A stretch of 27,527 nt of DNA from a virus: IMG/VR virus record IMGVR_UViG_3300008451_000405, positions 1-27,527 of that record; one strand, given 5' to 3'. The notes under the pieces were generated by a model that was given only the letters and a program-made list of their open reading frames with translations, was not told the DNA's origin and did not search any database. The position numbers were made by a program, and so were the translations under genes. This document shows positions 3,179 to 10,062 of this stretch, piece by piece. The stretch's first letter is position 1, and every line of letters starts with the position of its first letter.

Positions 3179-3204
3179 CATGGTCTGGGTCGTCTTCCTC
3201 CTGT

Positions 3205-3226
3205 GGCGGCCCGGACCGCCCTTTTT
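3205..3226 (+). terminator. Rho-independent terminator after the lysis cassette
   Basis: A GC-only stem GGCGG (3205-3209) pairs with CCGCC (3216-3220) across a 6-base loop, followed by CTTTTT. It lies after the last lysis-cassette gene and before the thioredoxin gene, where the late transcript would end. The stem is only 5 bp, so efficiency is uncertain. Confidence 0.55.
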
Positions 3227-7831: not shown

Positions 7832-8199
7832 TGGGAAAGATGAAGGACCTAGCCATTGACGAAGCCAATCGTCGCCGTGGACGGAACAACAATAACCGTG
7901 GCAAGGCGTATGAGCGAGCCGTCGCCAAGACTCTTGGTGGCATTCGTACCGGCATGTTCGGTGGCAAGGACGATGTTCAGCACGCCCTGCTTGCCGTCCA
8001 GGCAAAGAACGGGAAGGCCTATCCAGAACGGATAGACCGCTGGCTTCGCTGCATCCCAACCAAGGATGGACAGATTCAGGCGCTCGTTATCGGCGACGCA
8101 CCCGGAGCGGGTAACCGTCGTCGAGAGATTATCGTCATGGACCTGACCGACTTCATCGCTACCTTCATTTCTGAGGAGGAGCAAGATGACACTGAATGA
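7831..8199 (+). CDS. Holliday-junction-resolvase/RecB-like nuclease
   Basis: A 122-residue protein. After a basic arm (NRRRGRNNNNRGKAYERAVAK, with Glu in the first helix) come GGKDDVQHALLAVQAKN, giving Asp and the Q-x-K variant of the PD-(D/E)XK site used by RecB-type and some resolvase-type nucleases. The size fits a phage junction resolvase that trims recombination intermediates before packaging. The ATG at 7831 shares a base with the previous TAA; ATG 7840 is a possible alternative. With the YqaJ exonuclease and the nuclease at 6227 it forms a recombination set. Assignment is by motif only. Confidence 0.6.
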   Translation: MGKMKDLAIDEANRRRGRNNNNRGKAYERAVAKTLGGIRTGMFGGKDDVQHALLAVQAKNGKAYPERIDRWLRCIPTKDGQIQALVIGDAPGAGNRRREIIVMDLTDFIATFISEEEQDDTE

Positions 8200-8677
8200 A
8201 CTCCGCAACGAGTACTTCCATGAGATGCCGCTGCAGATTGTCTACTCCGAGAAGAACAACGATGCTGGTCAGCCACAGTGGACCGCTCAGTTTGAGCGCT
8301 GGCTCACGAACCCTGGCCATGTCATCAAGTTCAACGAGAAGGCCCCCTGCCGCCATGAGGGCCAAGACGCTGAGAAGTGTCACCTCTGTGGCACCTATGA
8401 CGAGAACGGAAACGTCATTGCCTCTACCGGATACCGAGTTGAGGGTCGAGCGCAGTACGAGTTCCCAGTCAAGCGTGTCCTAGCCATCATGTCTCGCGGC
8501 AAGTATGGCAAGGTAGACTTCGGTGCGCTTCTACGCCACTGGTTTAACACCCAGTCGCTGGAATCGCTCTGCGTTAAGTTCGGCTATGCCACACAGCAGG
8601 ATGCCCAAGAAGCCCTTGCCAAGGCGCTGGACAAGTTTAATAAATATTACCTGAGGGAACCAAAGAGAATAAAGTAG
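8186..8677 (+). CDS. Unknown protein with zinc knuckle and HTH-like C-terminus; possible late regulator
   Basis: A 163-residue protein. Residues about 50-70 contain CRHEGQDAEKCHLC, a zinc-knuckle arrangement. The C-terminal third (FGALLRHWFNTQSLESLCVKFGYATQQDAQEALAKALDKF) has the helix-turn-helix rhythm of sigma region 4 or small phage activators. It is the last early gene and lies directly before the strong late promoter, the usual place of a late-gene regulator. That role is inferred from position and pattern, not family membership. ATG 8186 has GGAGG 6 bases upstream and overlaps the preceding nuclease gene. Confidence 0.6.
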   Translation: MTLNELRNEYFHEMPLQIVYSEKNNDAGQPQWTAQFERWLTNPGHVIKFNEKAPCRHEGQDAEKCHLCGTYDENGNVIASTGYRVEGRAQYEFPVKRVLAIMSRGKYGKVDFGALLRHWFNTQSLESLCVKFGYATQQDAQEALAKALDKFNKYYLREPKRIK

Positions 8678-8697
8678 CGTTGTAGATGTGTTAGGCC

Positions 8698-8726
8698 TTG
8701 TAACAAAGGCTCTGGCATGGTATAAT
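8698..8726 (+). promoter_or_regulatory. Strong sigma-70 promoter for the late operon
   Basis: TTGTAA (8698-8703) and a perfect TATAAT (8721-8726) with an optimal 17-base spacer. Predicted start is near 8733. It is the best consensus promoter in the window and the only one ahead of the packaging, head, tail and lysis genes. The -35 box deviates at positions 4 and 5, leaving room for an activator. Confidence 0.75.
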
Positions 8727-8732
8727 ACGCAC

Positions 8733-8995
8733 CTATGACCGGCTAAGGCACCTAGACGCCACCGGTGGAAGAGTAAGTCTATGTCCCCTCAGCCGCTGCA
8801 TGTCTGCAGCCGTTTTCTTCCGAGCCGCTTTCTCCTGGCGGCTCGACCCCTGGCCCAGGGGGCGTCGTCCTCCGCTTCCTGGGCCGCCTACTTCTACATG
8901 AGCCGCGCCGACCATTGGACCTAAATGGTGCCACGTCGGGATGGTGTTATCACCCACGGCTCGTCAACCTATGAGGATTCAGCAACGGAGGACCT
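8733..8995 (+). promoter_or_regulatory. Structured leader RNA of the late operon with mutually exclusive helices
   Basis: No supportable gene lies between 8678 and 8995; after the promoter the stretch is packed with helices. ACCGG/CCGGT with inner GGC/GCC (8738-8766); GCTGCA/TGCAGC (8795-8810); CGAGCCGC/GCGGCTCG (8821-8845); CCCCTG/CAGGGG (8847-8861); ACCATT/AATGGT (8911-8929); GGTG/CACC (8943-8954). An alternative nested fold pairs GGCCCAGG (8852-8859) with CCTGGGCC (8878-8885) and GCGGCTC (8838-8844) with a second GAGCCGC (8900-8906), destroying two of the local hairpins. This looks like a switchable leader (attenuator, antiterminator of the HK022 put type, or riboswitch-like). No known RNA family was recognised. 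The metalloprotease ribosome site (GGAGG) ends it. Confidence 0.5.
8795..8816 (+). terminator. Possible attenuator hairpin in the late leader
   Basis: GCTGCA-TGTC-TGCAGC (8795-8810) is followed by CGTTTTCTT. A 6-bp stem with a T4 run about 80 bases after the predicted start could end a short transcript. The T-run is short and interrupted, so it may need a factor or be only partly effective. Confidence 0.35.
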
Positions 8996-9400: not shown

Positions 9401-9555
9401 GTGCGGCGACCTATTGTCGGCGTCGTATTTGCGTACCTATTCCGCGCTTAGGGTAGGAGCGAGTGGCTACTGCTGATTGCCACCGGCGACCAGGCTCCGT
9501 TAGGGACTCGTCTGACAGTGGCGAGATACTGCCTGGCTATATCTATGGAGGACTT
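9401..9555. other. Non-coding gap with stem-loops before the HNH gene
   Basis: No gene is convincing here; the HNH frame is open back to GTG 9463 but without a ribosome site. Helices visible: GTGGC (9463-9467)/GCCAC (9479-9483), and a nested stem CCAGGC (9490-9495)/GCCTGG (9531-9536) enclosing CTCG (9507-9510)/CGAG (9522-9525), which ends just before the HNH ribosome site. TGGCTA at its end also ends the twin motif further downstream. Confidence 0.4.
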
Positions 9556-9867
9556 ATGCCATTCAACCGACCGTGCCTAACCTGTGGGCAACTACAGACA
9601 AACGGCAACCGCTGCGCCCCATGCTCCTCAAAGGAGGCCACGAAGTGGAAGGCAGCAGCCGGACCATCGCCCTATCGAGACCCCGAGTGGAGGAAACTCT
9701 CTGCTCGGATGAGGAAGAAGTATCCCTGGTGTTCCCTCTGTGGAACGACCAAGAACTTGACAGTAGACCACTTGATTCCACTAAAGGATGGTGGTGCATT
9801 GATTGTTCCTGAGCATCTGCTCCGAGTTCTTTGCTGGACTTGTCACGGGAAGATTACGAAACATTAA
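9556..9867 (+). CDS. HNH endonuclease, packaging-associated
   Basis: A 103-residue protein with two cysteine pairs at the N-terminus (CLTC, CAPC), then YRDPEWRKLSARM and the beta-beta-alpha HNH core: CSLCG, VDHLIPL (catalytic His), EHLLRVLCWTCHGKIT. The usual middle Asn (NL) is replaced by His (EHLL), a variant worth noting. HNH proteins next to terminase genes are required for cohesive-end cleavage in HK97-type phages, and this one lies just upstream of terS. ATG 9556 follows GGAGGA by 5 bases; the longer GTG start at 9463 is not supported. Confidence 0.85.
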   Translation: MPFNRPCLTCGQLQTNGNRCAPCSSKEATKWKAAAGPSPYRDPEWRKLSARMRKKYPWCSLCGTTKNLTVDHLIPLKDGGALIVPEHLLRVLCWTCHGKITKH

Positions 9868-9932: not shown

Positions 9933-10030
9933 TGCAACCAAACTGCAACCAGTTTGTGTTCAGCATTGTTACATGTATGCAGCCATACCCTAGGGGGGTC
10001 TGAATTCTGCGTAATAACAGGGCTAGACTA
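9933..10030. other. Non-coding spacer with hairpin and repeats between motif copies
   Basis: It contains TGCAACCA twice, 11 bases apart (9933, 9944), the hairpin CAAACT-GCAACC-AGTTTG (9939-9956), and TACCCTAGG (9986-9994), which recurs at 10068-10076 next to the terS ribosome site. The direct repeats may be binding sites for the small terminase. No gene is seen. Confidence 0.4.
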
Positions 10031-10062
10031 CCCAGCGCCGAGTGGCACTGCCAGGTTGGCTA
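10031..10062. repeat. Hairpin motif copy 2 upstream of terS
   Basis: The same blocks, CCCAGCGCCGAGT (10031-10043) and GTTGGCTA (10055-10062), surround the hairpin TGGC-ACT-GCCA (10043-10053). Loop and stem sequence differ from copy 1, but base pairing is kept, so the fold rather than the sequence appears conserved. It ends 24 bases before the terS start. Confidence 0.5.

Follow-up and report, generated by a model that had tools for sequence, protein, structure and literature searches.

What is encoded in the 263 nt that lie between the early and the late genes of an uncultivated phage, packed with helices? The window, that is, the whole stretch of 27,527 nt that was analysed, is a 27.5-kb IMG/VR phage fragment, and its terminase has as nearest relatives Pontimonas phage phiPsal1 and Streptomyces phages of the phiC31 type, so that an actinobacterial host is likely. 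Upstream of the leader, the early region encodes a RecE-like exonuclease and a replication-initiation-like protein, followed by gene 8186-8677. An earlier note on this DNA had proposed a structured leader RNA of no known class with two competing folds; it was right that the leader is structured and unmatched, but it took the wrong folds for the important ones. The element is real, an apparently undescribed, covariation-supported phage leader RNA. Positions 8733-8995 would be the leader of the late transcript, with one hairpin, C, as the conserved core (Table 1).

Table 1. Features of the late promoter, the leader and the first late genes, in window coordinates.
Feature	Position	Strand	Description
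Inverted repeat GCCTTGTAACAAAGGC	8695..8710	+	Perfect arms, overlaps -35; sole exact GCCTTN6AAGGC match in window; conserved in L002/L003
Late promoter	8698..8726	+	TTGTAA, 17 nt, TATAAT, extended -10 TG; conserved in relatives
Leader	8733-8995	+	Between gene 8186-8677 and HExxH gene
Hairpin B0 (ACCGG...CCGGT)	8738..8766	+	5'-proximal; window lineage only; P 0.88 in full leader; same helix in L002
Hairpin A (GCTGCA/TGCAGC)	8795..8810	+	Followed by short T run; window lineage only; P 0.95
Hairpin B, CGAGCCGC/GCGGCTCG	8821..8845	+	P 0.99
Hairpin C	8852..8885	+	13-bp stem 8852-8864/8873-8885, loop UCGUCCUC; conserved core of element
Loop word GUCCUCC	8867..8873	+	Complementary to GGAGGAC; UCCUCC invariant in alignment A6
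Hairpin D	8900..8962	+	Outer helix GAGCCG/CGGCTC; P 0.99; lineage-specific insertion between C and Shine-Dalgarno (SD) sequence
Second loop-complementary site GAGGAT (GAGGAU)	8973..8978	+	Upstream of SD; GAGGAC in most G-type relatives
SD GGAGGAC of HExxH gene	8987..8993	+	Full complement of C loop
First late gene, zincin-like HExxH protein, 134 aa	8996..9400	+	Weak SprT/IrrE-like matches across relatives; orthologues found
HNH endonuclease gene	9556..9867	+	Followed by small and large terminase genes

That the leader contains no supportable gene was confirmed by comparison of the window with the close relative L002, which revealed several single-base indels and substitutions without codon periodicity; on these grounds a hidden gene was rejected for the window lineage. 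Conservation of the leader between these two sequences equals that of coding DNA, and the close relatives L002-L004, whose HExxH protein is 87% identical, were found to keep the entire leader, with single-base indels. The minimum free energy (MFE) of the leader, -108.9 kcal/mol (z -3.0), was better than that of 200 shuffles. None of 4227 Rfam models gave a gathering-score match for the window or six relatives, in agreement with the earlier failure to assign the RNA to a known class, and neither Rfam nor the literature searched yielded an RNA of this shape.

What distinguishes hairpin C from the other helices? Distant loci were collected via their HExxH, HNH or terminase proteins, never via RNA structure, and hairpin C was found in them at the 5' border of the HExxH gene. 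All HExxH loci examined that have an adjoining HNH gene and sufficient upstream sequence were observed to have this hairpin, and it was missing at the examined HExxH loci without an HNH neighbour. The earlier proposal of a structured leader RNA at the head of an HExxH/HNH/terS operon is supported. Across relatives, hairpin C has a GC stem of 12-14 bp, for which more than 20 different sequences were seen, with compensatory changes, and a loop of 7-9 nt; its 5' arms, each with a matching 3' arm, include GGCCCAGGGGGCG (window), CTCCCCGGCGCTG, CCGCCCGCACGTG, GCCTGCCGGTGG, CTCCCACTGGTGG and GCTCCCGCCGCG. The base before UCCUC(C) in the loop is G, A or U according to lineage. In the A/U-type set, 13 of 13 stem pairs were always paired, a completeness that is partly built in because alignment rows were chosen as hairpins, and 6 were double-changed (covariation score 0.58, as against 0.18 when shuffled). 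Double changes affected 9 of 12 pairs in the G-type set (0.61 against 0.26) and 9 of 20 pairs in the joint set of hairpins B and C (0.44; shuffles gave 0.12 and slid structures no more than 0.09). These double changes, the fixed place of the hairpin and the gene-based sampling are not built in by the choice of rows. The compensating changes looked for in homologues are strong for hairpins B and C, whereas the mutually exclusive fold sets for which they had been sought gained no support.

The loop behaves differently from the stem. UCCUCC was invariant over 17 aligned stem versions, UCCUC was present in all further C hairpins, and an invariant anti-SD word in an unpaired loop was found in hairpin C only. 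A UCCUC-loop hairpin of at least 9 bp was present in 13 of 13 tested loci (12-13 bp), compared with 2 of 780 shuffles of the upstream regions. In 3.0 Mb of phage loci searched on both strands, such hairpins occurred only at this site, apart from two weak, chance-like ones. A candidate second copy in the early region (3181-3218), which would have resembled the putL/putR arrangement, was rejected as a chance match: it overlaps a plain terminator (3205-3220), contains mismatches and has no relatives outside the same species. The region 3181-3220 contains a hairpin with a UCCUCCUG loop, seen in this species only; it lies downstream of a small ORF and overlaps GGCGGCCCGGACCGCC-CTTTTT, a strong intrinsic terminator.

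A hairpin at the place of B precedes C in most lineages, and B stems covary in relatives, but B is missing in five lineages (L349, L357, L361, L363 and L365), which have C alone. In these B-less lineages C itself lies 7-9 nt past the -10 box, the usual distance of the first hairpin, indicating that C is essential and B dispensable. Insertions comparable to hairpin D were found in L087 and L342 and are absent in most relatives.

Which folds, then, does the leader adopt? All helices named in the earlier note are present as complementary segments. However, the supposed nested long-range fold 8852-8859/8878-8885, GGCCCAGG/CCTGGGCC, is the lower part of one 13-bp hairpin, C (8852-8864/8873-8885), and this helix and CGAGCCGC/GCGGCTCG of hairpin B, which had been assigned to mutually exclusive sets, coexist in the predicted fold. 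The long-range helix 8838-8844/8900-8906 has a P of about 0.000, and hairpin D, which supplies its partner strand, is missing from most relatives; the local hairpin CCCCTG/CAGGGG has a P of 0.035. A hairpin with a T run at 8795-8816, suggested to end early transcripts, is present, but terminator-like hairpins occur at chance number (2 found, 1.4 expected). An attenuator or riboswitch in which 8838-8844/8900-8906 and CCCCTG/CAGGGG would oppose the local hairpins is accordingly very improbable, even though the sequences are complementary and the helices can still pair in L002, with G-U pairs. An attenuator architecture would depend on an antiterminator partner helix that is not conserved and on a terminator-like hairpin, A, confined to the window lineage, and the alternative fold lacks a terminator. 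As to a riboswitch, neither a ligand-like conserved core nor an Rfam match was found.

Where does the transcript begin? The claim that the best promoter lies upstream of the leader held, in that TTGTAA-17-TATAAT (10/12 plus TG) is among the best of the window. The GCCTTGTAACAAAGGC inverted repeat over its -35 element may be an operator for a late regulator. A TAnnnT hexamer (TACAAT, TAGACT, TAAGAT, TAGAAT, TATCCT, TACACT, TAGTAT and others) was found 7-9 nt upstream of the first hairpin in nearly all lineages; it often incorporates the stop codon of an unrelated gene upstream, and no conserved -35 was seen outside the window lineage among the relatives compared. From the distance between this -10 box and the first hairpin it follows that the transcript should begin with the hairpin or hairpins, and the predicted starts accordingly place them at the head of the late transcript in nearly all lineages; the exceptions, L011 and the window lineage, have longer leaders. 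An ATG-x-TAy start was observed to overlap the -10 box and to open a short ORF across the hairpins in several A- and G-type relatives (L083, 2868-; L084, 2656-; L145, 2942-), and in most A-type genomes that ORF is fused to the HExxH gene, so that protein and RNA constraints overlap there. B and C of most A-type relatives lie inside the HExxH frame, where pairing-preserving changes in B can also be synonymous.

What could the invariant loop recognize? UCCUCC is the complement of the SD core GGAGGA, and we infer that the loop acts by base pairing with SD sequences. In the MFE structure of the complete leader, 8867-8874 is paired with the SD (8986-8993) at the cost of C (P 0.60); hairpin C has a P of 1.0 in 8733-8890 and of 0.6 in the whole 263 nt. 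A competition between hairpin C and loop-SD pairing, other than that between the folds of the earlier note, is thus predicted by the folding model. Many G-type relatives have, from C to the start codon, a linker, GAGGAC, the SD GGAGGAC and the start, the upstream GAGGAC-type copy being kept although it is unneeded as an SD. Of 41 distinct leaders, 32 have such a second site (GAGGAC, GGGGAC or GAGGAU) upstream of the SD; the script identified 30 of these, and L086 and L087, where it had scored the site as SD, were added. Among 191 control genes from these genomes, 5 have one. The test was devised after the sequences had been seen, and relatives within each class are not independent. As the loop is invariant, no covariation is possible for the loop-site helix. 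Compact G-type leaders fit an H-type pseudoknot (S1 of 12 bp, S2 of 6 bp and a linker of 9-13 nt) and could form one from the C stem and GUCCUC:GAGGAC. By analogy, the nearest phage leader pseudoknot would be that of T4 gene 32, likewise a structure in a phage mRNA leader upstream of the SD, which involves cooperative gp32 binding and an A+U-rich region (PMC3014915). Unlike in T4 gene 32, stem 2 of the putative pseudoknot comprises the anti-SD loop and a second SD-like copy.

The cis site is not universal. In A-/U-type loop lineages (L032, L025, L145 and L170 groups), C is not followed by a GGAGG SD at the HExxH gene, and the location of B and C within the reading frame of most A-type lineages likewise speaks against a cis role there. 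The second site is missing in L083/084, L157-162, L160 and L385. The SD of the B-less lineages, GGAGGUU, pairs with only 5 nt of the loop. GGAGGAC SDs are common in most G-type genomes and nearly absent from most A/U-type genomes, and GGAGGAA SDs are not favoured in U-type genomes. This last observation, together with the lack of covariation between the replication-gene SD and the loop within the A clade, led to rejection of a strict anti-SD specificity. Two of the loop classes lack the cis site.

The best single mechanism, held tentatively and at somewhat less than even probability, is an anti-SD leader RNA controlling translation, which would tune it at the early-to-late switch. The long GC stem of C would display the UCCUCC loop near the transcription start, a small hairpin usually shielding its 5' side. 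In the window and in most relatives with a noncoding leader, the loop GUCCUCC may pair with the SD GGAGGAC of the first late gene, turning translation off, or else with the upstream copy GAGGAC/GAGGAU, leaving the SD free; by these alternatives the leader would set the timing or amount of translation of the HExxH and coupled genes. This reading is supported by stems that vary freely while UCCUCC stays fixed, by the enrichment of the second site ahead of the SD, by the loop-SD pairing in the MFE fold, by the prevalence of GGAGGAC SDs in G-type genomes and by the resemblance to the alpha-r14/cuckoo anti-SD sRNAs described below. A protein-binding or mRNA-stabilising 5' element, in which a host or phage RNA-binding protein reads the UCCUCC loop, a 5' hairpin blocks decay, or both, is rather unlikely. 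Its 5'-terminal place, with B or C at a constant 7-9 nt past the -10 box, would suit such an element, an invariant loop on a free stem would equally suit a protein site, and the strict linkage with the HExxH-HNH operon would permit autoregulation; however, a protein site has no need of an exact complement of the SD core, and the tandem complementary sites are left unexplained. A processive antiterminator of the put type, suggested in the earlier note, stays a rival that has lost ground and is now judged unlikely. Its hairpins would bind the RNA polymerase that made them and promote readthrough of late-operon terminators or pauses, as with HK022 put, whose readthrough is factor-independent and involves the zinc-binding domain of the polymerase beta-prime subunit. 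HK022 putL consists of two stem-loops with the first pair at nt 3, and putL and putR are elements of about 60-70 nt with two stem-loops directly behind a phage promoter (PMC9378689). Here too the hairpins would begin about +2/+3 past the promoter and two of them directly follow it in most lineages (C alone in L349, L357, L361, L363 and L365; the window leader is longer), their position tracks the promoter and not the start codon, so that they may even sit in coding sequence, and the early window genes that were searched yielded no antiterminator protein family. Unlike in HK022, one of the two hairpins, B, is dispensable, the anti-SD loop word is the sole conserved sequence, the operon is late and not early, and each genome has a single copy; as far as the comparison by description goes, no sequence similarity to put is visible. 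Nor are intrinsic terminators clearly in excess in the late region, where 18 were counted on the two strands and 16.4 would be expected. The LoaP/dfn system also places a hairpin within the leader of a long operon, dfn being a UNCG-type hairpin that requires LoaP (PMC12691694), whereas no conserved UNCG loop was found in the phage leader, although some B loops are UUCG.

Lineages without a cis site would, on the anti-SD reading, have to use the same loop in trans, for example on the early replication gene. Trans action of the leader is possible, but a reading in which the leader or a processed fragment acts mainly as a trans-acting anti-SD RNA, repressing early phage or host mRNAs at the early/late switch, is quite improbable. 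The best shared candidate target is the early replication gene. In 20 of 24 genomes its SD includes GGAGGA, while A/U genomes otherwise mostly use GGAGGT/C/G, and its mean loop duplex is the best among ortholog groups found in at least 20 genomes; it had been noticed as a target before the ranking. The frequency of GGAGGAC by G versus A/U type fits complementarity, at the clade level only. On the other side, changes at the R position of the loop are not matched in the replication-gene SD within the A clade, the replication gene of the window itself has a weaker site, AGAGGGC, and the leader has no known terminator or processing site. The alpha-r14/cuckoo RNAs (CcsR, NfeR1) act in trans in this way, with an ultraconserved CCUCC-type loop word on highly variable stems (PMC10746234), and hairpin C likewise has an invariant anti-SD loop word on variable stems. 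Those RNAs, however, are free-standing sRNAs of proteobacteria, each of whose several hairpins has a CCUCCUCCC motif, whereas the phage element is an mRNA leader ahead of an operon with a single UCCUCC loop. The best sub-threshold Rfam match of the leader was CcsR1 (RF02791; 19.7 bits, E 0.014), far below the gathering cut-off of 65.3. Doubtful to much the same degree is the fullest version of the anti-SD reading, in which an undescribed leader family would form an early-to-late translational switch, toggling between a decoy SD in cis and the first late gene's own SD and in addition silencing the replication gene in trans.

How widely is the element distributed? No similar DNA was found among 50,697 phage records of known isolates, and phiPsal1, the nearest terminase relative, is without hairpin C. 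The HExxH protein had no relative in the bacterial genomes searched, and thus no prophage or host was identified. HExxH homologues without hairpin C (L088-L091, L095-L097, L108-L119, L124, L130-L141 and L150-L152) lie in another context, most without an adjoining HNH gene. The large terminase behind the HExxH-HNH module of L103, L116, L125 and L127 is a different one, with about 35% identity, indicating that the module is exchanged independently of the terminase; L103, L125 and L127 keep the same leader ahead of it.

Covariation-supported structured RNAs heading phage late operons appear to be rare in the literature searched. If the loop truly pairs with SDs, phages of mostly uncultured hosts would control the early/late switch by RNA, and the invariant hexamer on a free stem offers a clean, directly testable prediction. 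In many phage contigs that lack annotation, a covariance model of the element would mark the late promoter and the point where the packaging operon starts.

Some neighbouring sites were also observed. The gap between the HExxH and HNH genes (9401-9555) looks structured in the window lineage, with CTCGTC/GGCGAG changed to CTCGCC/GGCGAG in L002, and ends in another GGAGGAC SD. Further downstream, the segment 9868-10086 ahead of terS is near-invariant among relatives and contains repeated CCCAGCGCCGAG segments. A start about 395-415 nt ahead of terL is common to many related contigs, three of which have identical first bases, and a cos site probably lies near 10030-10046.
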